Shown in pieces: positions 10,234-63,344 of a stretch of DNA of 64,000 nt. Numbering within the stretch: position 1 is the stretch's first letter; each line of letters opens with the position of its first letter. This stretch comes from Syntrophomonas sp. DTU018. GTDB taxonomy: Bacteria > Bacillota > Syntrophomonadia > Syntrophomonadales > Syntrophomonadaceae. The stretch spans positions 1 through 64,000 of the forward strand of contig LFSR01000034.1 of NCBI GenBank assembly GCA_001513155.1. The letters are read 5' to 3'. The translations under genes and the position numbers were made by a program. The notes under the pieces were generated by a model. The model made no database searches. It was not told the origin of the DNA and was given only the letters and a program-made list of their open reading frames with translations.

Positions 10234-11112
10234 TTAGCCGTTGGCAGCCTGGCGCAGAGTATGGAGATCAGGCAGTTTTTGGATCTTGGACGGTCCTGGA
10301 CCGTATTTTATCAATGCTCCCACTGCTATCATGGCATAAAGAGCGTACATTATCTCGCTGCTGTTGGGTATGGACATAATGGTAGGATATACATTGCTGG
10401 GCTTGCCCTGCAGGTTCTCGGACAAGATCCGGCGCAGTCCCCTGGGCTCGGATTTTATCCATTCACCGTGCCTGGTCAGTTCCCATCTTAATTCACCGGT
10501 AGTACTTTTGGTGTAATCAAGGCGGGCGCGGTCCTCGAGACTTAGACGCAGCCAGTATACTGGCAATTCAGAAGCTGGCAGGGAGTGGCTCCTGCCCGCT
10601 GCTCGGAACTCCTGCAATCCCCAGGTATTCTCGCCATTGCCCTGGTAATCTTCCTCCAGGCAGATGATTCCCCGGAGAGAGGGCATCTGCTTCCATAAGG
10701 AAACTGTTCTTTGCAGCATTGCTTTGTTCTCAACAAATATGTACTTTACATCCGTTCTTTTGACAATAAAGATAAACTCATCATCATTCACCATAGGAGT
10801 TATGGTGTTGACCACTGCCCCGGACAACAGTATGGCCATATGTGCCCATCCAGCCTGAGCACATGATTTGGAGATGATCGCAATATCATCACCTTTCTTG
10901 ACACCATACTTGATCAATGCCAGGGCAATTTCTTCAGATATCTGAGCCCATTCCTGGTAACTTATGGTGCGCCATTCCTTGCCGGATTTGAACGTATTGG
11001 CCGGCTGACTGCCCGCATTCCGCACCGTACTGTAAAACATTTGGGGAATGGTTGGCACATTTTCTCGGTAATAGTCTAAAACGCCGATCCCCGTCTTCAC
11101 AATTGCACTCAT
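10234..11112 (-). pseudogene. Decayed, truncated acyl-CoA synthetase (AMP-binding)
   Basis: 292 residues remain of a family normally 500-640 aa. The N-terminal half is recognisable (WRTISYQEWAQISEEIALAL, VKKGDDIAIISK, AVVNTITPMV). The adenylate-forming signature normally close to YTSGTTGEPKG reads YTKSTTGELRWE, so the essential SGTTG...K pattern is destroyed. The following stretch (NSSEIMYALYAMIAVGALIKYG) still matches the family, but the frame ends soon after and the ATP-binding core and C-terminal lid are absent. The start (ATG 11112) retains a GGAGA ribosome site. This is decay by substitution plus 3' truncation, next to the end of the helicase operon, consistent with an insertion boundary. 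Confidence 0.8.
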
Positions 11113-11429: not shown

Positions 11430-12149
11430 CTATAATTCCACCCGCCGGTTATATACCCAAGTGGACAAGGCGAAGATAACTGCTGCTACCAGAGTAATTA
11501 CCCCCAGCAGTAGCCAGAAAATCTGAGCAGTAACATCTGGAGCTTCGATGGTTCTTTGTCCCAACATTAAGCCCATCATCTTAACTGACAGCCAGAGGGT
11601 GGCAAAAAACGTAACTATGGTGACCAGCCCTGAGAAGCGGCTGACCAGCTTGCCGATAATCTGACTGAAGAAGCTGACGGAGATCAGGTATCCTATCCAG
11701 GCTACGGTGCACAGGTAAAACAGCACAACTATGTCCAGGTAAGGCAGAATCAGGTCCAGGATATCATAGAGTTCCGGAGCCAATTCTCCAGCCAGCAGCA
11801 GTCCACAGATTCCCACTATCAAGGTACCGAACACATACTGGGTTAAAAGGGCTGCCAAGCGGCTGCCCAGTATCATACCGCCTCCTACGGGAAGGGACAT
11901 CATCAAATAAATGGTGTGATTATTCCATTCCTGTCCCAGCCGGAAAGAGGAAACAATAGGCAAGAAACAGGCCAAACCCATTACCATCATCATAGCAAAC
12001 AAAACCGCAGTGTGTATGGAGCCTATTTTCAGGTAGAGCACCAGGCTTACTAGAATGGCTGTTCCTCCTATTACTGCCAGTTCGGGTGCCATTTCCCGCA
12101 TTTGTTTTTTGTAAAGAGCTCCAAACCTTGAGAGGGATTTAGCGAGCAT
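11430..12149 (-). CDS. ABC transporter membrane subunit (YtrC/D-like)
   Basis: 239 residues with about six hydrophobic segments (for example IGSIHTAVLFAMMMVMGLA and VVLFYLCTVAWIGYLISVSF). It is an integral membrane protein that overlaps the upstream ATPase gene by 11 nt, so the two are translated together. The order GntR regulator, ATPase, permease on the minus strand matches Ytr/YhcE-type ABC systems of Firmicutes, thought to respond to cell-envelope stress or export small molecules. The substrate cannot be inferred. The regulator gene upstream is broken, so expression may no longer be controlled normally. Confidence 0.75.
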   Translation of the reverse strand: MLAKSLSRFGALYKKQMREMAPELAVIGGTAILVSLVLYLKIGSIHTAVLFAMMMVMGLACFLPIVSSFRLGQEWNNHTIYLMMSLPVGGGMILGSRLAALLTQYVFGTLIVGICGLLLAGELAPELYDILDLILPYLDIVVLFYLCTVAWIGYLISVSFFSQIIGKLVSRFSGLVTIVTFFATLWLSVKMMGLMLGQRTIEAPDVTAQIFWLLLGVITLVAAVIFALSTWVYNRRVEL

Positions 12150-12834
12150 CCCGCATCACCTCCTTCATTATTTCCACCAGGGACATGTTTTTCTCTTCCC
12201 GTAAATCTTCGGCATTACCAGACAATACTGTTTTACCATTGCGGATAAATATTACTTCATCCACTAATCTTTCCACCTCTCCAATCTCATGAGTGGAAAT
12301 AATTATGGTTTGCTCTCCTTCTCGATAGTCCCGGATAACCGAGTTGATGATCTCTTCCCGGGTGAGCAGATCGATGCCTGACAAGGGCTCATCCAGCAGC
12401 AGGTAGGAGGAACGTCTGGACAAGGTTAACAGCAGTTTGACTTTGGCCCGCTGCCCTTTGGAAATTTTACCGATTTTCATAGCTTCATTTAAATTTAAGT
12501 AATTCAGCAGGTCATGGTACTTGGTGTGATCCCAGTCTGAGTAGAAAGTGCTTATAAATTCAGCGGCTTTTCCTACTGTCATCCAAGGGTACAAATGATC
12601 TACTTCCGGCAGATAGGCTACCCGGTCCCGGGTCATCCAGTGATTCAACCCATCTACCAGCACCTCTCCCCGGCTAGGACGATTCAACCCGGCAATCATT
12701 TTGAGAGTAGTTGATTTGCCGGCTCCGTTAGGGCCAAATAAGCCAATTACCCGTCCTGAAGCCAGCTGCGCCTGAAAATTGTCTAAGGCGCGTACGGTAC
12801 CAAAATATTTGCTTACCTGTCTAAACTCAATCAC
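12139..12834 (-). CDS. ABC transporter ATP-binding protein (YtrB-like)
   Basis: 231 residues. Walker A is GPNGAGKSTT near residues 34-43. A degenerate signature (ISKGQRAKVKLLLTLS) is followed by Walker B SSYLLLDEPLSGID and the switch histidine in IIISTHEIGE. The signature lacks the full LSGGQ but ISKGQ is common in this subfamily. It couples ATP hydrolysis to the membrane subunit encoded just downstream. The start overlaps the end of the GntR remnant by 4 nt (ATGA-type junction), showing the original operon order regulator-ATPase-permease. Confidence 0.85.
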   Translation of the reverse strand: MIEFRQVSKYFGTVRALDNFQAQLASGRVIGLFGPNGAGKSTTLKMIAGLNRPSRGEVLVDGLNHWMTRDRVAYLPEVDHLYPWMTVGKAAEFISTFYSDWDHTKYHDLLNYLNLNEAMKIGKISKGQRAKVKLLLTLSRRSSYLLLDEPLSGIDLLTREEIINSVIRDYREGEQTIIISTHEIGEVERLVDEVIFIRNGKTVLSGNAEDLREEKNMSLVEIMKEVMRDAR

Positions 12835-13122
12835 TGGTCTTCCGCCTCCTTGGCCTGCATGTAGTCCTGCAGCATCTTAATCAGATCACTGCCCTGGTAA
12901 CCCAGAGCATCCATTTCGGCAACAAAGTAATTTAAAATTGATTGGGCCATTTCTTCTTTCATTCTGGCCAGCATCTCCTGATCAGCGCTGACAAAGGTCC
13001 CCTGGCCCCTTAGGGTTTCTACCATATGCATAGCTTCCATCTCCCGGTATGCTCTCTGAACAGTATTAGGGTTAACCCTGGCCATCTCTGCGTACTCCCG
13101 CTGTGAAGGAATACGATCCCCA
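12831..13122 (-). pseudogene. GntR (YtrA family) regulator missing its N-terminus
   Basis: The frame encodes QNGDRIPSQREYAEMARVNP followed by NTVQRAYREMEAM, the second half of a GntR winged helix including the VNPNTV recognition region, and a C-terminal helical tail of the YtrA subfamily (normally about 120 aa). Upstream in frame are only three Ile codons and a TAA, so roughly the first 30 residues, the native start codon and the promoter are absent. An internal ATG at 13085 could yield an 84-aa product without the first DNA-binding helices. The break is at the same place where the plus-strand sao operon loses its 5' end. Confidence 0.75.
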
Positions 13123-13196
13123 TTTTGTATGATGATTTAAGCAGAAGGACAATCGAAAGAGCCGTTAAGGCAGCACTGGATGAAGTAAATGGCTAA
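13123..13196 (+). pseudogene. C-terminal tail of a lost gene at the head of the sao operon (possibly saoT)
   Basis: An open frame on the plus strand reads YDDLSRRTIERAVKAALDEV then NG and stop (TAA 13194-13196). It overlaps the ATG of the permease at 13189 by 8 nt, which is the overlap expected of a translationally coupled upstream gene. No start codon or ribosome site is available, because the sequence to the left belongs to the GntR remnant on the other strand. In sao clusters as I recall them a thioredoxin-like protein (SaoT) often accompanies the permease. The identity of this tail is a guess. Confidence 0.35.
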
Positions 13197-14292
13197 TGAC
13201 TTTTGGGCTTCCTTTTGGCAATTATTAAATATTAGTTCTTTCTGGCTGGTAGTAAGTTATTTGCTTTGCAGTTTTTTACACGTTATATTGCGGCCGGAAT
13301 TCCTGCAAAGGAATTTGGGCAACAGCAAGATGTCTTCCCTGGTGAAGGCTACTATTTCCGGGATGCTCTTGCCCATTTGCAGCTGCGGAGTGGTACCTTT
13401 AGCCTTAAGTCTTTATCATTCAGGTGCTTATTTAGGGCCAACTCTGGCTTTTCTGGTAGCCACACCCATAATAAATCCTGCTGCGGTCATACTGGCCTTT
13501 GTTCTTCTGGGCCCCCAGCTAACCGCGATATATATTATCACCGGTTTCATGTTGCCAATGATAATTGGGGTACTGGGGAACAAATTTGGAAAAGACGAAC
13601 TCATATCCCCAGTGGCGGCAGCTATGGCCAATGCTTCCCGGGGATCCGCACAGATAAACTCTGCCGCCGTTAAAACCCCCTGGAGTAAAAAAATAACCAG
13701 CGGTCTGGATTGGGGCGTGCGCAGCCTGGGTTTTCAGGTAAGCCGCTATGTTCTGGTGGGGTTGGTGCTGGCAGCGCTTTTGCTCACCATTATCCCGGTA
13801 TCTTTTATTCAGGATTATCTTAGCCGGCCTGATATGGTTTCTCTTGTGGGTATTGCTGGGCTAGGAGCCATCATGTATGTGTGCGCAGTGGGGCATATTC
13901 CCTTTATTGCTGCCCTCGTTGCTGCGGGTGCCGCTCCGGGTGCAGCCATTGCCTTCCTTTTAACCGGGACTGCCACCAACATACCTGAGTTATTCAGCAT
14001 TTTTAAGCTGATTGGCAAGAGAACTATAGTAATATACACCGGTACGGTAATATTGTTTAGCTTCGTGATCGGCTATATTACTAATTATTTGCTGATGCCC
14101 GGATTTACACCAGTCTTTGATTTAAGCGGTGCTCAGAAAAGCATTGCTTTGGCGAGCAAACTGTCCCTGACTGTGCCAGCAGGGGTGGAGTATATTTGTG
14201 CGGTCATTATACTGGCCATGGGCATTATTGCCTGGCGGCCTACGGTTAAGGAATGGTTCATGAAACTGGGGCGGAGAGCTGTAAATGCGTAG
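13189..14292 (+). CDS. saoE: SaoE-like efflux permease (DUF318/ArsP-type, SO_0444-like)
   Basis: 367 residues with about nine or ten membrane segments. The family signature PICSCGVVPLAL places a CxC pair at residues 64 and 66 in a membrane-proximal loop, as in predicted permeases for copper, zinc, arsenic and organoarsenicals. A second conserved block, GHIPFIAALVAAGAAPGAA, mirrors the internal repeat of the family. The gene leads a tight run with a Cys-Cys lipoprotein, two binding proteins, an ABC permease/ATPase and a DsrE-like protein, matching the sao (organometal) cluster in which this member is called the efflux transporter SaoE. The permease family is firm; metal export is family knowledge; the sao assignment rests on context. 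Confidence 0.7.
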   Translation: MANDFWASFWQLLNISSFWLVVSYLLCSFLHVILRPEFLQRNLGNSKMSSLVKATISGMLLPICSCGVVPLALSLYHSGAYLGPTLAFLVATPIINPAAVILAFVLLGPQLTAIYIITGFMLPMIIGVLGNKFGKDELISPVAAAMANASRGSAQINSAAVKTPWSKKITSGLDWGVRSLGFQVSRYVLVGLVLAALLLTIIPVSFIQDYLSRPDMVSLVGIAGLGAIMYVCAVGHIPFIAALVAAGAAPGAAIAFLLTGTATNIPELFSIFKLIGKRTIVIYTGTVILFSFVIGYITNYLLMPGFTPVFDLSGAQKSIALASKLSLTVPAGVEYICAVIILAMGIIAWRPTVKEWFMKLGRRAVNA

Positions 14293-14761
14293 GATTAAGA
14301 GTACAACCATACTTCTATTTCTCTTTTTTCTTTCCGGCTGCAGCGGAGGTGTGCCGGAGGAAGCTGCTATTCCCGGCCAAGAGAAGCCTGCTGCCATGGA
14401 AACAGATCATAGTTTGTATAAGCATTTTATAGCTGTATATGGGGAAAAAAAGCCGCTGCTGACAGGAGTCAATGATATTAATGATGACGGGCGGGAAGAT
14501 TTGATCGTGATCTACCAGGATACCGCTGAAACTAACAAGATGATCGCCATCTGGGAAGAAAAAGGAGAGGTGATCTTTTCCGAACCTACTCCTGCCCCGG
14601 TAGAGAATTACCGTATAGAATGGCGGGATATAGATAATAAGGCACCGGTTGAATTAATAGTGTCAGGTTCTAAGGGGGTGAACATCGGGTACGCCATATA
14701 TCGCTGGGAGAACGGAGATTTTGTAAATATATTTGGGGAAGGCATGGAAAATTGCTGCTAG
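14285..14761 (+). CDS. saoC: SaoC-like lipoprotein ending in Cys-Cys-COOH
   Basis: 158 residues. A lipoprotein signal peptide ends in LSGC (Cys19), so it is anchored outside the cell membrane. Residues 64-72 contain the acidic turn DINDDGRED, like the calcium-binding loop of FG-GAP/VCBS repeats. The protein terminates in GEGMENCC, two adjacent cysteines as the very last residues (157-158). A Cys-Cys or Sec-containing carboxyl terminus is the defining feature of the family I recall as 'Cys-Cys-COOH (seleno)protein SaoC'. Here both positions are TGC codons, with no UGA. The start overlaps saoE by 8 nt. A likely role is extracytoplasmic capture of a thiophilic metal or organometal (inference). 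Confidence 0.75.
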   Translation: MRRIKSTTILLFLFFLSGCSGGVPEEAAIPGQEKPAAMETDHSLYKHFIAVYGEKKPLLTGVNDINDDGREDLIVIYQDTAETNKMIAIWEEKGEVIFSEPTPAPVENYRIEWRDIDNKAPVELIVSGSKGVNIGYAIYRWENGDFVNIFGEGMENCC

Positions 14762-14810
14762 TAAGCAATTGACTAACCAAAGGAAAAGCAGCAGAGAGGG
14801 GATGAAGAAA

Positions 14811-15980
14811 ATGAAAAAGCGAAAGCCTAATATCCTGCTTGTTGTTTTATTCTTGGGGATATTGGCTTTATCCGGTTGTGGCGGGCAGACGCCCCAGGAT
14901 TCTGAGCAAACCGGAGACGATTTGGCGGCTCAGTTAGTCGAAGAATATAACCTGGAACCGTTAAGTGCTGAAGATGCTAATTACACTATAAACATGGGTT
15001 ACTATGATTGCGATCATATGACTGCTGCGTGTATAGCTATGGACACTGGCATTTTTGATGCTTTAGGGCTGAAAGTGAACTTGACCGGTAACGGCAATGT
15101 ACCTGAAGCTATGGCAGCCGGGAAAATGGATGTGGGCTATGCAGGATGGACCACTACTCTGAGGGCGGTTCAAAAGGGAACGCCATTGTTCATAGCCGGT
15201 CAGAATCATACAGGAGGAGCGGAATACCTGGTAGCCAGTCTTGGGATCAAAAGTCCGGCAGATTTGGTGGGAAAAAGAGTTTCTTTTGGCACTGATCCCG
15301 AAGAGAACAATCTCAATTGGGTGGAATGGGCTGAACAGCTGGGTATTCCCGCTGATATCACCCTCTATGAGAATTATAACATGTCCGACAAGGATGAGTA
15401 TTTTGCTCTAAAAGCGGGAAAGTTGGACGCTTATATTTGCTGTGATCCTTGGGGATCCATGGCGGAATACGAGGGTACCGGCTGGGTAGTTATACGCCAA
15501 AATACAGAGCGGAATGGATTTCAAGGAACCTGCTGTAAGATAGCCATGCATCGTGAATTTGCCAAAGCTCACCCCAGATTGGCAGAGCGGGTTTTACTGG
15601 CTCATACCTTAGCGGTTCAGTATATGTACAAACATCCTTATAAAGCTGCAGAAATATTTGCCAAGAACTACAGTGTGCCTTTGGAAGTGGGCTTAATGAC
15701 TATTTGGAAAAAGACCAATGAAGAAGGCCGCACTATTTCCTGGGATCTGAAAATGGATGAAATGGAAAACCAATTGGCAACTATGCGCAAGTACAGCGTG
15801 CAGGACGACATCAACAATGTAAACTTGGCTGACTATGTTGATACTACCTATATGGATAACTGCGGTGCCAAAGATTTTCAAACCTTCATCAAAAATGAAG
15901 TAGATCCGGTATTTCCTCTGGGAATGGGTTATGAAGACTGGAAGGCCAAAGCTATGGAAGTGGACAATATCAAGGCGTAA
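14811..15980 (+). CDS. saoX: SaoX-like ABC substrate-binding lipoprotein
   Basis: 389 residues from ATG 14811, which has GAGAGGGG 9 nt upstream; an ATG at 14802 abuts that site and is less likely. Lipobox LSGC is followed by a domain of the NrtA/SsuA/TauA type (DHMTAACIAMDTGIFDALGL, AMAAGKMDVGYAGW, LVGKRVSFG). Two vicinal cysteine pairs are striking: ICCDPWG (210-211) and GTCCKIA (241-242), both in the region expected to line the ligand cleft. Ordinary nitrate/sulfonate-binding homologues lack them. With the downstream permease and ATPase it forms an ABC importer. The ligand is predicted to be a soft-metal or organometal species by context. Confidence 0.75.
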   Translation: MKKRKPNILLVVLFLGILALSGCGGQTPQDSEQTGDDLAAQLVEEYNLEPLSAEDANYTINMGYYDCDHMTAACIAMDTGIFDALGLKVNLTGNGNVPEAMAAGKMDVGYAGWTTTLRAVQKGTPLFIAGQNHTGGAEYLVASLGIKSPADLVGKRVSFGTDPEENNLNWVEWAEQLGIPADITLYENYNMSDKDEYFALKAGKLDAYICCDPWGSMAEYEGTGWVVIRQNTERNGFQGTCCKIAMHREFAKAHPRLAERVLLAHTLAVQYMYKHPYKAAEIFAKNYSVPLEVGLMTIWKKTNEEGRTISWDLKMDEMENQLATMRKYSVQDDINNVNLADYVDTTYMDNCGAKDFQTFIKNEVDPVFPLGMGYEDWKAKAMEVDNIKA

Positions 15981-16048
15981 ATATCTTGGCATTAGAAAAG
16001 GACTGAGCAGATATGAACTGCAGTGCAACGATGGATGAGACTCCAGGG

Positions 16049-16168
16049 TGTCATTGCGAGCGGAGCGAAGCAATCTCAAACGCGAACAGCAGGTCTGTTA
16101 AGAGAGATCACCACGTCGCTGTGCTCCTCGCGATGGCACGAAGAGAGCTCTTTTCACCGCAATGACAC
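16049..16168. repeat. MITE/REP-like dispersed repeat inside the sao operon
   Basis: The unit begins TGTCATTGCGAGCGGAGCGA and ends GCAATGACAC, with an inner block GATCACCACGTCGC...CTCGCGATGGCAC that pairs with the left arm. The same building blocks recur at 33359-33642, 36880-37010, 42538-42820 and 47816-47973. The unit lengthens the saoX-saoB gap to 247 nt while the rest of the operon is overlapping or tight. It is non-coding; it could fold as mRNA and dampen or partly terminate transcription. Confidence 0.8.
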
Positions 16169-16227
16169 ATTAGGAAGCGATGGCATTTTAGTCGTCCTTT
16201 TGGTACGGAGAGGGCCATTTTCACAAC

Positions 16228-17022
16228 ATGAGAAATAAAAGCCTGCTGTTGGAAGGAATCATAGTTGCTGCGGTAATCATTCTGGCCTTGATGGCCTGGC
16301 TGAGCCCCGGGCAAGAAATGAGCGACTTGAAAGTAGCCTGCAATGATGACGCTGCCGGTTTGCTGGTCAGTTATTTAGCCAGTCAAGATAGTGGAGCCCT
16401 CGAGGTTGTTAATATGAGCTATCAACAATTGCAGGATTGTTGCAACAGCCAAACCGAGCTGGCCTTAGCCGCCGGAAATTTTGATATGGCGATACTTTGT
16501 CCAGACAGTGCCGACAAATTGATTGCCAGCGGGCAGCCCTATGAAGTTTTGGGTGCGGTAGTCGTCAACGCTCTGGTACTGGTCACTTCTCAGGATAAGT
16601 TGCCGCAAACCGTAGGCTATATGAACGGCCGGGATATTCAGAAACAGTTAGTATGGTCCAACCTGGGCAGTAGCATTGAAATGCAGCCTATGCTGCCATC
16701 AGGCCTGCCCTATGCCCTGGAAAGAAAAGCGGTGGAAGGGATTGTCCTGGATATACTGGGGGCGCTGAAAATAGGTGGTTACCGTTCAGCCTTACCAGCG
16801 GATTATCCTACTTCGGTATTAGTGGTGCATAAAGATCTGATAGGCGGTCCTGAGTTAGCAAATTTTATTAAAGCCTATAACCAGGCGGCGGCAGAAATGA
16901 ACAGTACGGAAGTGCTGACCAGGGAGCTGGCTATAAAGTTGGAACTGGAAGATAGCAGTGCAGAGGTAGAAGTATGGAAAGACATGGGAGTGCAATACCG
17001 GATGCTGGCAATGCCAAATTAA
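16228..17022 (+). CDS. saoB: SaoB-like membrane-anchored substrate-binding protein (Cys form)
   Basis: 264 residues with an N-terminal uncleaved hydrophobic anchor (GIIVAAVIILALMAW) followed by a periplasmic-binding-like domain (NFDMAILCPDSADKL, GAVVVNALVLVT, TSVLVVHKDLIGGPELANFI). Residues 71-72 are a vicinal Cys-Cys (LQDCCNSQ). In the sao system as I recall it, SaoB is a second binding '(seleno)protein' in which one of these residues can be selenocysteine; here both are TGT/TGC. The end overlaps the start of the ABC permease by 49 nt in another frame. No strong ribosome site precedes ATG 16228 (AGAGGG lies about 12 nt off), perhaps because the repeat inserted just upstream. Confidence 0.65.
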   Translation: MRNKSLLLEGIIVAAVIILALMAWLSPGQEMSDLKVACNDDAAGLLVSYLASQDSGALEVVNMSYQQLQDCCNSQTELALAAGNFDMAILCPDSADKLIASGQPYEVLGAVVVNALVLVTSQDKLPQTVGYMNGRDIQKQLVWSNLGSSIEMQPMLPSGLPYALERKAVEGIVLDILGALKIGGYRSALPADYPTSVLVVHKDLIGGPELANFIKAYNQAAAEMNSTEVLTRELAIKLELEDSSAEVEVWKDMGVQYRMLAMPN

Positions 17023-17807
17023 ATCTGGGAGATATTTTTGATAAATATCGAGGTAATTTCTATACTCTGTTCGTATTAATGGTCCTGCTGATTATTTGGA
17101 ACTTTGCTGCCAGTAGGATACAGAACACTTTGTTGCTGCCCTATTTATCGGAAACAGCGATGGAGTTTTTCACTGCCTGGACAGATCCAGTTATCATGTC
17201 TAATTTAGGACTGACTTTAAAAAGGGTAATTACCGGTTTTCTTTATGCTTATGTGATTGGGGTTCCCCTCGGGCTTCTCATGGGTTATTCGGCCACGGCC
17301 ATGCAGTCGCTGGCACCTGTAATGAACTCCATTCGCCAGATTCCAATTATGGCTTGGGTACCCCTGTCGATCATCTGGTTTGGATTGGGAGATGGGCCGA
17401 CAGTTTTCTTGATTGCCATGAGTGCAATTTTCCCCCTGGTTATTAACACCATTGCCGGTGTGCAGGGAATCGATCCCAATTACTATAATGCTGCTCGCAG
17501 CATGGGTGCTTCAAAGCTGGACATCGTGCGCGACATTGTGGTACCGGGTGCAATGCCACATATTTTAACTGGCTGCCGCTTGGCTATGGGAGCCGGGTGG
17601 ATGTCTGTTATCTGTGCCGAGTTTATTGCTACCAGTGCTGGTTTTGGATTTCTGATGGTAGAAGCTCAGGTGCGTCTGGAAACAGCCCAGCTTTATGCCC
17701 TGATGATCATGTCGGGATTAGTGGGCTATGCCATTGATAAAGTGTTTATTGCCGTTGAGAGAAAAATGACTTCATGGAGATTCAAAGATGGCTTTGTTGG
17801 AAGTTAA
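16974..17807 (+). CDS. saoP: SaoP-like ABC transporter permease
   Basis: 277 residues with about six membrane segments of the SsuC/TauC/NrtB type. The cytoplasmic EAA loop that contacts the ATPase is YYNAARSMGASKLDIVRDIV followed by VPG. ATG 16974 has GAGG 7 nt upstream inside the end of saoB, supporting this start despite the 49-nt overlap. It pairs with the ATPase encoded immediately downstream (20-nt overlap) and with the binding proteins SaoX and SaoB to form an importer. The family is clear; the sao name rests on neighbours. Confidence 0.75.
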   Translation: MERHGSAIPDAGNAKLNLGDIFDKYRGNFYTLFVLMVLLIIWNFAASRIQNTLLLPYLSETAMEFFTAWTDPVIMSNLGLTLKRVITGFLYAYVIGVPLGLLMGYSATAMQSLAPVMNSIRQIPIMAWVPLSIIWFGLGDGPTVFLIAMSAIFPLVINTIAGVQGIDPNYYNAARSMGASKLDIVRDIVVPGAMPHILTGCRLAMGAGWMSVICAEFIATSAGFGFLMVEAQVRLETAQLYALMIMSGLVGYAIDKVFIAVERKMTSWRFKDGFVGS

Positions 17808-18675
17808 GGAGATCAGCAAAACATTTACCCAGAAGAAGAAACCTGCTCATATCGTCTTGGAAAACATGTCCTTTAATGTGGAACAGGGGCAGTATGTTTC
17901 TCTGCTGGGGCCATCCGGATGTGGAAAAACTACCCTTTTAACTATGCTGGGAGGCTTCATGTTGCCTGATGCGGGGCAGATCTATCTGGCCGGTAAAAAA
18001 GTCGAGGGACCAGGTCCGGATCGGGGGTTCGTTTTTCAGAATTATGCCCTATTTCCTTGGATGACAGTGAAGGAGAATATTCTTTATTCGCTTAAAGTGC
18101 AGAATTTCAGCAAAAAGGAAAGAGAGCAACGCTTACAGGAATTGCTGGATATATCTCATTTACATGGCAGTGAGAATAAATATCCCATACAGCTTTCCGG
18201 TGGTATGCAGCAAAGAGTAGCGGTTGTAAGAGCATTGGCCAGTCGCCCGGAGATACTGCTCCTGGATGAGCCCCTGGGAGCCATAGATTTTCAAATGCGC
18301 GAGCTTTTACAGGAAGAACTGGCAGCCCTGGTGGAAGAAACCAAAACTACTGTGGTGATGGTTACCCATGATGTAAATGAATCCGTTTACTTAAGCGATC
18401 GGGTCATCGTTATGTCTGCCAATAAAGGGCGGATCATTCAAGATGTGTATATCGATCTTCCCCGGCCTCGTTCACGCCAAAGCAAAGCTTTCAAAGAATA
18501 CGTGTCCGAACTGACCGACCTGGTACGCCAAGCTTTTCGAGAAGGAGAAAGTGAAAGAAGGGATGATATCCCGTTTAGGCATCGGGGCGTTGACAATATC
18601 TTTGTTGCTTCTTACAACCGGATGCACAGCAAGTATACCAATGTTGCCAATGGCAGAAGCAGAGCTGCCAAATAA
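17788..18675 (+). CDS. saoA: SaoA-like ABC transporter ATP-binding protein
   Basis: 295 residues. Walker A GPSGCGKTT, Q-loop FQNYALFPW, signature LSGGMQQRVA, Walker B ILLLDEPLGAID and switch VMVTHDVNESV are all intact, as in SsuB/TauB/NrtD. About 40 residues beyond the usual end (ERRDDIPFRHRGVDNIFVAS onward) form a C-terminal tail not typical of SsuB and of unknown role. It energises the permease encoded just upstream and is followed after 23 nt by the DsrE-like gene. Confidence 0.8.
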   Translation: MALLEVKEISKTFTQKKKPAHIVLENMSFNVEQGQYVSLLGPSGCGKTTLLTMLGGFMLPDAGQIYLAGKKVEGPGPDRGFVFQNYALFPWMTVKENILYSLKVQNFSKKEREQRLQELLDISHLHGSENKYPIQLSGGMQQRVAVVRALASRPEILLLDEPLGAIDFQMRELLQEELAALVEETKTTVVMVTHDVNESVYLSDRVIVMSANKGRIIQDVYIDLPRPRSRQSKAFKEYVSELTDLVRQAFREGESERRDDIPFRHRGVDNIFVASYNRMHSKYTNVANGRSRAAK

Positions 18676-18698
18676 ATAGTTTAAGGGAGAGGGTAAGA

Positions 18699-19031
18699 AT
18701 GAGGGTGGCTTACATTTTTTCCACCAACAATGCGCAAAGAATCCTGGACAAAATGATAATTCCTCAAATGCTGGAGGAAAGACACGGAGTGGAGGTTGTC
18801 GGGATGATGTTCTTCTTCGATAATACCTTCCTGCTTACCGAAGGCAGCAGTACCGGTGACAGATTGCAGGAGATTCATGAAAAATATGGCACCATTCTAA
18901 TGGCCTGCGATATGTGCAGCATCGAAAGAGGTATTGACGACAAATTGATTCAAGGCGCTGCTATTGGCTGTTTTCCTAACCTATACGCTGCTTTGGGCAG
19001 TGCCAACATCGATCAAGTTATTACTCTATAA
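18699..19031 (+). CDS. saoD: SaoD-like DsrE-family protein
   Basis: 110 residues with a DsrE/DsrF/YchN-like fold: N-terminal VAYIFSTNNAQRILDKM, a hydrophobic strand VVGMMFFFDNTFLL, and a CxxC pair ACDMC (Cys70, Cys73) plus Cys91 (GCFPNL). DsrE proteins carry or transfer sulfur through reactive cysteines. The ribosome site GGGAGAGGG precedes ATG 18699. As the last gene before a terminator it closes the operon. In the sao cluster a DsrE-related protein SaoD occupies this role; cytosolic thiol handling of the imported metal is inference. Confidence 0.7.
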   Translation: MRVAYIFSTNNAQRILDKMIIPQMLEERHGVEVVGMMFFFDNTFLLTEGSSTGDRLQEIHEKYGTILMACDMCSIERGIDDKLIQGAAIGCFPNLYAALGSANIDQVITL

Positions 19032-19050
19032 AAACACTGATAAGACTATT

Positions 19051-19085
19051 GCAGCCTCCTTATAAAAGCGAGGTTGCTATTTTTA
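19051..19085 (+). terminator. Rho-independent terminator of the sao operon
   Basis: GCAGCCTC (19051-19058) pairs with GAGGTTGC (19070-19077), with one G-T pair, followed by TATTTTTATG. It lies 20 nt after the saoD stop. Between here and 19325 I see only two very short frames (13 and 20 codons), the first with an AAGGAG site, and no convincing gene. Confidence 0.8.
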
Positions 19086-19325: not shown

Positions 19326-20399
19326 ATGTCGCGTAAGTTGAAGGTAGCTGCGATTCAGATGGATGTAGCTCCGGCTCCTGTTCCCGTTCGGTTGGAGCGG
19401 GCCTATGGCTTGGTTCGAGAAGCTGCCGGCCAGGGAGCAGAACTGGTGGTACTGCCCGAGGTGTTTAATACCGGGTACGCATACACCAACGCAAATTATG
19501 AAAATGCGGAAAGATTTGAAGATGGTACTACGGTGCAGTGGATGAAGCATACTGCTGCCGAGCTTAATATCCATTTGGCGGGCAACCTGCTGCTTTGGGA
19601 TGAGGAAGGCCAGGATATTTACAATACCCTTTTGCTGTTTGCACCTGATGGGCGTATGTGGCGGTATATAAAAAATTATCCCTGGAGTTGGGAACGAGGC
19701 TATTTTGTCCCGGTCAAGAACCGGCCTCAAACGTTGGTGGCCCATACTGACCTTGGAGATATCGGTTTTTTAATCTGCTGGGACATTGCTCATGCGCATT
19801 TATGGAAGCAGTATGCGGGCAAAGTGGACCTGATGGTTATATCCAGCTGTCCGCCCGATGTTTTCAAAGCAAAATTGAGACTTCCTTCAGTGGAGCTGGG
19901 GCCTGAAGATATGGGCTCTACTATACAATCCATGCATGATGAAGCCCACAACCTGTTTGGGAAAACTATCGAACAGCAGTGCGCCTGGCTGGGTGTTCCG
20001 GCTGTGAGTGCTATATGCAATGGTACCTTTAATACACCTATCCCTAAAGGTAAAGGAACCTTTTTGGTTTATGTTTTATCTTCGCTGAAACTGGCCAAAT
20101 ACCTGGGTGAGGCCAATGATCTGGAAATGACCTGCCAGATGTATTCGGCCTGCAAGGTTATGGGAGCAGGCGGTGAGGTCTTGGCTGCCGCCAATAGCCG
20201 GGGAGATGAAGCGGTAATTACCGAAATAAGCTTGCCGGAGCAAAAGCCGCATCCTGCAGCTCGCCAACCCAAGCCCGTAGTACGTAAAACGTCTTATCTT
20301 TTGGCTAATTTCTGGTTCCCGCTTCTTACCCGTTCACTCTATGCGGGCAAGATTAAAGAGTTGAAAAGGGCTGCTCCGGGGAAAACTCTTGACGTTTAA
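19326..20399 (+). CDS. Carbon-nitrogen hydrolase (nitrilase superfamily)
   Basis: 357 residues. The Glu-Lys-Cys catalytic triad is visible: Glu45 in VVLPEVFNTGY, Lys116 in RYIKNYPWSWERGYF, and Cys151 in GFLICWDIAH. These enzymes hydrolyse nitriles, amides or carbamoyl groups in the cytoplasm. The substrate cannot be read from sequence. The C-terminal ~80 residues are longer than the minimal fold and end in a basic segment. AGGAGG lies 7 nt before ATG 19326. The gene follows the sao terminator, so it is probably a separate unit, with the short membrane-protein gene at 20487 next downstream. Confidence 0.8.
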   Translation: MSRKLKVAAIQMDVAPAPVPVRLERAYGLVREAAGQGAELVVLPEVFNTGYAYTNANYENAERFEDGTTVQWMKHTAAELNIHLAGNLLLWDEEGQDIYNTLLLFAPDGRMWRYIKNYPWSWERGYFVPVKNRPQTLVAHTDLGDIGFLICWDIAHAHLWKQYAGKVDLMVISSCPPDVFKAKLRLPSVELGPEDMGSTIQSMHDEAHNLFGKTIEQQCAWLGVPAVSAICNGTFNTPIPKGKGTFLVYVLSSLKLAKYLGEANDLEMTCQMYSACKVMGAGGEVLAAANSRGDEAVITEISLPEQKPHPAARQPKPVVRKTSYLLANFWFPLLTRSLYAGKIKELKRAAPGKTLDV

Positions 20400-20486: not shown

Positions 20487-20732
20487 ATGGTGCTTTCACG
20501 AGTGGCCTGGGTGCTGGCGATTATTTGGCTTTTGTGTGCCTTTTTGGTGTTTCCCATACAGCGAGCAGGAATAGCTGCACAGTATATTATAGCCGGGGCT
20601 TTATTAATAGCTTCAGTAGGTATGGGAGTCTATCTGGCTGCCAAAGGCAAGGAACTGACTAAAAATGAACGCTGGGGAATCATATTGAGTATACCGGTTT
20701 GGCTGCTCCTGGCTTATACCTTTTACCGTTAA
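20487..20732 (+). CDS. Small membrane protein, unknown
   Basis: 81 residues with three predicted membrane segments (VAWVLAIIWLLCAFLVF, YIIAGALLIASVGMGVYLA, WGIILSIPVWLLLAYTFY). A strong ribosome site (GGGGGAGAG) precedes ATG 20487. I recognise no family. The 20733-20929 gap that follows holds a short inverted pair around CCCTAGG and no gene. Confidence 0.6.
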   Translation: MVLSRVAWVLAIIWLLCAFLVFPIQRAGIAAQYIIAGALLIASVGMGVYLAAKGKELTKNERWGIILSIPVWLLLAYTFYR

Positions 20733-33358: not shown

Positions 33359-33642
33359 TGAGATAGCCACGCCCCTCACGGGCCTCGCAATTATTACCTG
33401 CTGCGCAGACTACGATGAACGAAAAAGTCACCATCTGTGTCATTGCTTGGGAAATAGCTCCCAATTGTGTCATTGCTGTGAAAATGGCTTTCATGTCAGT
33501 AAAAAGGCAACCATTGTGTCATCGCGAGCGCGTAGCGCGTGGCAATCTCTATGTCAACTAACGGTTGGGGTTAACAGATCGCCACGTCGCTCCGCTCCTC
33601 GCGATGACACAAAAGGAATCCTTTTCGAGGAATGACACATAA
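33359..33642. repeat. Composite MITE/REP-like repeat cluster
   Basis: It comprises the GAGATxGCCACGCCCC...CTCGCAATTATTACC unit (33359-33415), two partial TGTGTCATTGC copies (33436-33480) and a full TGTCATCGCGAG...GATCGCCACGTCGC...GCGATGACAC unit (33515-33610) with a trailing GGAATGACAC. The first arm also occurs at 42576 and part of it near 36910. The 414-nt gap 33244-33657 otherwise holds no gene; a minus-strand frame ending at 33300 is mostly repeat-derived. Confidence 0.8.
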
Positions 33643-63072: not shown

Positions 63073-63099
63073 TTATAGATAACTACATATTCGCAGGCT

Positions 63100-63344
63100 A
63101 TGAAGGGAAGCAACAGTGAAATCCCTTGATCACAGAGAGCCGGGGTTGCTGGGAACCGGTATCAATATTTCACCTGGACATCGTCCCGGAGCCGCAATCT
63201 GAACGGTTTGAACCTAGTAGGTGCGCCGGACGCTTCAAGTCCGTTAACAAGAGATCATTAAGCGGTTGCCGTTTTATTATGGCAACAAGCAGGGTGGTAC
63301 CGCGGGAAGCCCCTCTCGTCCCTGAACGGACGAGAGGGTTTTTT
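63100..63344 (+). promoter_or_regulatory. T-box leader (probably isoleucine) controlling ilvD
   Basis: Stem I pairs GGGA (63105-63108) with TCCC (63184-63187) and GTGAAAT (63116-63122) with ATTTCAC (63167-63173). The 3' side of the specifier loop between them is CTGGACATCG, giving ATC (63180-63182), followed by a purine, as likely Ile specifier. AGAGAG and the GGTTGCTGGGAACC apical region are present. The antiterminator T-box AGGGTGGTACCGCG is at 63291-63304, overlapped by the terminator CCCTCTCGTCC...GGACGAGAGGG with TTTTTT to 63344. Uncharged tRNA binding would allow read-through into ilvD. Confidence 0.92.

Follow-up and report, generated by a model that had tools for sequence, protein, structure and literature searches.

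What would a selenocysteine (Sec)-assisted organometallic (SAO) system be carrying where it uses cysteine throughout and stands in a genome without the lyase of the system? The question is raised by a stretch of 64,000 nucleotides (nt) from Syntrophomonas sp. DTU018 (contig LFSR01000034.1, positions 1 to 64,000, hereafter the window), in which a cluster of sao genes occupies 13189-19031. The SAO system was reportedly described by Haft and Gwadz in 2023, with the NCBIfam families SaoA, SaoB, SaoC, SaoD, SaoE, SaoL, SaoP, SaoT and SaoX. Judged by its sequence, the window cluster appears to be a complete structural set of SAO transport genes in an all-cysteine form.

The sao operon and its cysteines

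Seven intact open reading frames (ORFs) lie on the plus strand in the order saoE-C-X-B-P-A-D, the content and order that an earlier note on this DNA had given from the letters alone. Several encode parts of an ATP-binding cassette (ABC) transporter.

13189-14292, plus strand: saoE, efflux permease of the ArsP/DUF318 type, with C64-S-C66 and C232; NF040736, 483 bits (cut-off 325); PF03773
14285-14761, plus strand: saoC, lipoprotein with an LSGC lipobox and a Cys-Cys-COOH end; NF040734, 160 bits (cut-off 80)
14802-15980, plus strand: saoX, lipoprotein solute-binding protein of SsuA/NMT1 fold; NF040735, 493 bits (cut-off 300)
15981-16227, no strand: saoX-saoB spacer, 247 nt, with an interspersed palindromic repeat at about 16049-16167
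16228-17022, plus strand: saoB, binding-protein-like subunit anchored in the membrane, with D70-C71-C72 and C91; NF040727, 239 bits (cut-off 140)
16974-17807, plus strand: saoP, ABC permease with C214; NF040733, 386 bits (cut-off 295)
17788-18675, plus strand: saoA, ABC ATPase; NF040729, 387 bits (cut-off 360)
18699-19031, plus strand: saoD, DsrE-related protein with CxxC (C70xxC73) and C91; NF040732, 186 bits (cut-off 169)

Families were assigned with NCBIfam equivalog models at their curated cut-offs, and broad classes with Pfam. The best NCBIfam match of each of the seven proteins is the corresponding Sao equivalog, always over the cut-off, which bears out the identities that the earlier note had given and places seven of the nine SAO families in a single operon-like cluster. 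The Pfam classes agree (ArsP_1, NMT1, BPD_transp_1 and ABC_tran), with SaoE a member of PF03773 ArsP_1 at 186 bits (cut-off 32.3) and SaoB without any Pfam match whatever. The common strand, the tight or overlapping spacing and a gene order shared with relatives suggest one operon. Among the overlaps described before, those between saoE and saoC (8 nt), saoB and saoP (49 nt) and saoP and saoA (20 nt) are real, whereas the one between saoC and saoX is only apparent, since it hinges on the TTG at 14733 with which the saoX ORF (14733-15980) opens. The ATG at 14802 is the more likely start because of the lipoprotein signal, and SaoX residues are numbered from it here. Elsewhere in the genus, the saoE of Syntrophomonas UBA4911 (L027, 8211-9496) seems disrupted near its 3' end.

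To read the cysteine positions across the family we used 80 sao loci with organism names, fetched together with the SaoX alignment; in every frame TGA was translated and not taken as a stop, and a Sec call is a prediction from the motif. Every position that is Sec in relatives is a TGC or TGT codon in the window, so that the cluster contains no Sec, as had been proposed, and the CSC of SaoE, the terminal Cys-Cys of SaoC and the Cys-Cys of SaoB are all where the earlier note had seen them. SaoC closes with C157-C158-stop, a Cys-Cys end found in 75/75 homologues, while C71 and C91 of SaoB are kept in 76/76 and the CSC and C232 of SaoE in 72/72; SaoX has four invariant cysteines (C70, C214, C244 and C245). 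Position 72 of SaoB is cysteine in 58 sequences and Sec, from an in-frame TGA, in 18, and position 214 of SaoP (n = 80) is cysteine in 31, Sec (TGA) in 46 and another residue in 3. Cysteine or Sec was found at each of the characteristic positions, namely SaoB DC[C/U], the C-terminal CC of SaoC and SaoP 214. The sao cysteines are thus not incidental, and their exchange with Sec, exclusive at SaoB 72 and almost exclusive at SaoP 214, speaks for ligation of a soft element by thiolates or selenolates.

The states of the two proteins are linked. For SaoP and SaoB in that order, 31 loci are Cys/Cys, 21 Sec/Cys and 18 Sec/Sec, and SaoB-Sec is paired with SaoP-Cys at none, occurring only where SaoP is also Sec. 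Sec is thus not demanded by the SAO models, and its lack is common to the window copy and the Cys/Cys loci. On the SaoX tree the state has changed at least 8 times in SaoP and at least 4 times in SaoB. The window falls inside a fully supported clade of 24 sequences (Syntrophomonadaceae-like, Brachyspira, Fretibacterium and others) that is all cysteine where the position is known, bar two rumen loci; the all-cysteine state is therefore an inherited feature of the clade and not a local loss. The host genome also encodes selA (556 bits) and selB (378 bits), both of which the earlier note had advised looking for, together with a tRNA-Sec with anticodon TCA. The organism can thus probably make selenocysteine, and its use of cysteine would not be for want of the Sec machinery.

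Predicted structures place several of these residues in comparable positions. The SaoX model (mean predicted local distance difference test score, pLDDT, 89) has an SsuA/TauA/Thi5 fold with 3un6 and SsuA as its top PDB matches, the best match being a binding protein listed with zinc; Foldseek matches for the SaoX and SaoB models include SsuA, TauA and a Staphylococcus aureus binding protein that contains zinc. SaoB (pLDDT 89) is modelled as a single N-terminal helix followed by a periplasmic-binding-protein fold. In the secondary-structure map, two neighbouring strand-helix loops of SaoB carry C71-C72 and C91; in SaoX, the first such loop carries C70, and C214 and C244-245 fall at strand ends. 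Because such loop and strand-end sites hold the ligand in this fold, we infer that the conserved cysteines of both proteins face the ligand cleft and converge there. Between the two genes, the 247-nt spacer of the window compares with a short one of about 35 nt at L025, and partial copies of its palindromic repeat occur in the window at 33576, 42714 and 47843. A structured RNA in this gap was considered (fold z -1.9) and rejected, the signal being accounted for by the interspersed repeat.

A possible importer and the junction upstream of saoE

On balance, and by a modest preference, we read the cluster as the all-cysteine form of an SAO soft-metal(loid) ABC importer with a thiol relay and an ArsP-type exporter. 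SaoX, an SsuA-fold lipoprotein with four invariant cysteines, and SaoB, with its Cys-Cys-plus-Cys site, would pass a soft-metal(loid) compound, for example an organomercurial or a trivalent organoarsenical, to SaoP, whose channel (Cys214) would import it with ATP-driven work by SaoA. The Cys-Cys tail of the SaoC lipoprotein may act as a thiol relay, cytosolic SaoD would receive the ligand after import, and SaoE, as an ArsP-type permease, would expel the product. ArsP is an exporter of trivalent organoarsenicals (PMC6205960). The substrate, the direction of import, the order of hand-over and the role of SaoE are those we infer as most consistent with the proteins present. Support for an organometal comes from the MerB-like lyase SaoL, which is over the cut-off in 26 of the 45 sao genomes surveyed for it, with 2 weak matches under the cut-off and 17 genomes with none. 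Because the host has neither SaoL nor an intact SaoT, the window copy may be a transport-only version, or other enzymes may break the carbon-metal bond.

Several points weigh against this proposal. SaoL, which the earlier note had advised looking for elsewhere in the genome, is absent, as it is from all five nearest relatives tested (L024-L028); replacement of the gene elsewhere in the host was likewise dismissed, no match being found in the genome. A consensus-match scan found no promoter-like site between the junction at 13127 and saoE, which puts expression of the saoE operon in doubt. A 2026 review describes the precise roles of the Sao proteins as open (PMC13188914). Finally, the selenium-linked genes at sao loci, a double-cubane-cluster reductase and occasionally yedE-like and cysteine-desulfurase-like genes, count against it because organometal detoxification alone does not predict them. 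We do not claim that SaoT and SaoL are mutually exclusive alternatives: Fisher's test on loci gives p 0.004, but the tree yields 3-5 informative pairs with a median p of 0.125.

The junction itself lies between two truncated genes, the second of which, directly upstream of saoE, the earlier note had overlooked.

12831-13126, minus strand: GntR-type regulator, 5' end gone, next to an ABC-2 type transporter pair at 11430-12834
13127-13196, plus strand: saoT remnant (thioredoxin-like CxCC protein) reduced to its final 22 codons and stop, overlapping the saoE start

The 5' ends of both genes are cut at 13127, and the truncated GntR gene occupies the place expected for the sao promoter region. The remnant is almost identical to the 3' end of the intact same-genus saoT at L024 (130 bits to NF040730). 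The search for SaoT across the genome that the earlier note had called for returned only this 22-codon fragment, with nothing over the cut-off elsewhere in the host assembly, and the missing 5' end of the GntR gene was not found there either, so that relocation of either part was set aside. Among the 69 sao loci classed as complete, saoT adjoins the cluster in 37, mostly just upstream of saoE and L024 included, and was not found at 32, the window among them. The GntR gene is whole in two same-genus genomes (G007 and G008). Positions 11430-13123 are 85% identical to G008, where the GntR gene runs on to a full N-terminus and directly adjoins a homologue of the small membrane protein at 20487-20732; that site lacks the segment with sao and a nitrilase-like gene (13127 to about 20430), which was either inserted in the host or lost in G008. 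The nitrilase-like gene (19326-20399) was rejected as a sao component, as it stands beside sao only in the window and in a near-identical genome, G009, and not at the other loci of the order that were checked.

The junction fits a deletion of the shared upstream region with both 5' ends, and it may also be a collapsed or chimeric assembly. That the window copy is decaying or is such a chimera, the junction having taken the promoter and saoT and left the operon silent, is a serious though minority possibility and would be compatible with any functional reading. It draws on the cutting of both genes at one point, with neither 5' end found elsewhere in a 2.6-Mb assembly that is 99.9% complete, on the lack of a promoter-like site, and on the G009 contig with locus L024, which ends just upstream of saoT. 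On the other side, the seven ORFs are intact and their proteins 98.6-100% identical to those of G009, so that any deletion would be recent, and the promoter scan was only a consensus match. Further upstream, an AMP-ligase-like ORF at 10234-11112 looks degenerate or truncated, and contig G009:C38 ends inside it, at window position 10689.

Rival functions and the neighbours of sao loci

If the soft element were selenium, SAO would handle it as an organoselenium compound, another reduced selenium compound or a metal-selenide, within the selenium economy, with the double-cubane-cluster protein as its partner reductase and no organometal detoxification; we consider this rather unlikely. The gene for that reductase is near 31 of the 69 complete loci, each of the 44 copies that were scanned matches NF040772 at E < 1e-100, and the association has been gained or lost about 16 times on the SaoX tree. 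The chance of such a gene in a 20-kb stretch is about 1%, an estimate from one gene over the cut-off in the 2.6-Mb host genome and not a formal test. The repeated association is an independent lead to function. In the host the double-cubane gene is unlinked to sao and is followed by an activase gene and then yedF (L146, 1420-3983, contig C58), which also speaks for selenium, yedF being a marker of selenium metabolism. We claim no novelty for the link, because a paper on methyltransferases has already drawn sao and double-cubane genes together in methyl-selenide gene clusters (PMC10418091), a setting that also counts for the selenium reading.

The same reading draws on SelB, which is over the cut-off in 44 of the 50 sao genomes surveyed and in 20 of the 24 with a Cys-type SaoP, against a published background of 21.5% for bacteria and 42% for Clostridia (PMC10418091). 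This link may be one of lineage, however: in a control of 63 genomes from the host order, selB is present in 58, comprising 9/9 with sao and 49/54 without. With selB as common where sao is lacking, the enrichment was set aside as proof of a selenium role, and no sao-selB link can be claimed at that level. In addition, vicinal dithiols and a MerB-like lyase suit metals or metalloids better than selenium, and the yedE-like and desulfurase-like genes stand at few loci only. A molybdopterin oxidoreductase of the formate dehydrogenase/thiosulfate reductase type, under all listed cut-offs, lies by sao in 11 loci (for example L058, 14726-16831).

In a related scheme, which we regard as unlikely, SAO would provide the transport for a reductive pathway that also involves the double-cubane-cluster protein and its ATP-driven activase. 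The thiophilic organo-element compound brought in, whether organoselenium or organometal, would be cleaved by SaoL or by reduction at very low potential. If true, the scheme would explain why SaoL and SaoT are frequently missing, as in the host. Decidedly unlikely, in our view, is that the system controls how a thiophilic nutrient metal (zinc, copper, nickel or cobalt), and not an organometal, is taken up and expelled. The SO_0444 Cu/Zn efflux family ranks second among the models for SaoE (194 bits, under the cut-off of 300) and a top fold match of SaoX is the zinc-listed protein, but nutrient importers normally have neither Sec/Cys-lined permeases nor a MerB-like lyase, and import together with export within one operon would be odd for a nutrient. 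An ordinary ABC importer for sulfonate, nitrate or taurine whose cysteines are incidental, the assignment that the earlier note had named as fatal to its own, is highly improbable: SaoX, SaoP and SaoA are generally similar to the Ssu/Tau/Nrt families, but those models stay far under their own cut-offs (SsuA_fam 92 of 163.5 bits, TauC 141 of 342, taurine ATPase 219 of 357) where the Sao models exceed theirs, SaoE, SaoC and SaoB are always in company, and the cysteines, the Cys-Cys pairs near absolutely, are invariant or Sec-swapped across Bacillota, spirochaetes, Synergistota, deltaproteobacteria, Dehalococcoidia and fusobacteria.

Neither a plasmid-borne nor a viral origin was retained, as there was no plasmid match and SaoX relatives are missing from viral contigs. 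Far from the cluster, a T-box leader at 63091-63326 is the only match in the window to reach the Rfam gathering score.

Comparison with known systems

The favoured reading, of a soft-metal(loid) importer, shares its logic with mer organomercurial resistance (MerB lyase, MerA reductase, MerT/MerP uptake), in which a thiophilic compound is imported and processed via paired cysteines; sao differs in having an ABC importer in place of MerT/MerP, and the host in lacking the MerB-like SaoL. SaoE belongs to the same Pfam family, PF03773, as the methylarsenite efflux permease ArsP, yet forms a separate equivalog tied to sao genes. With SsuABC, TauABC and NrtABC, SaoX, SaoP and SaoA have fold and family in common, and the Sao proteins stand apart through scores far under the curated cut-offs of those families, their invariant cysteines and the extra anchored subunit SaoB.

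Since SAO is known from sequence only, an all-cysteine copy, which could be expressed in ordinary Escherichia coli without selenium machinery, would offer a practical route to learning what the system carries, and the all-cysteine and Sec clades, with SaoB-Sec confined to SaoP-Sec, a natural experiment on the reason for using Sec. The window copy shares with the SAO system seven of the nine families, a single operon and the conserved Cys/Sec motifs, and differs in having no Sec, a genome without SaoL and a saoT cut to 22 codons. To a kind already known and defined in silico it thus appears to add a copy that is all cysteine across its clade, has no lyase and carries a truncated saoT.

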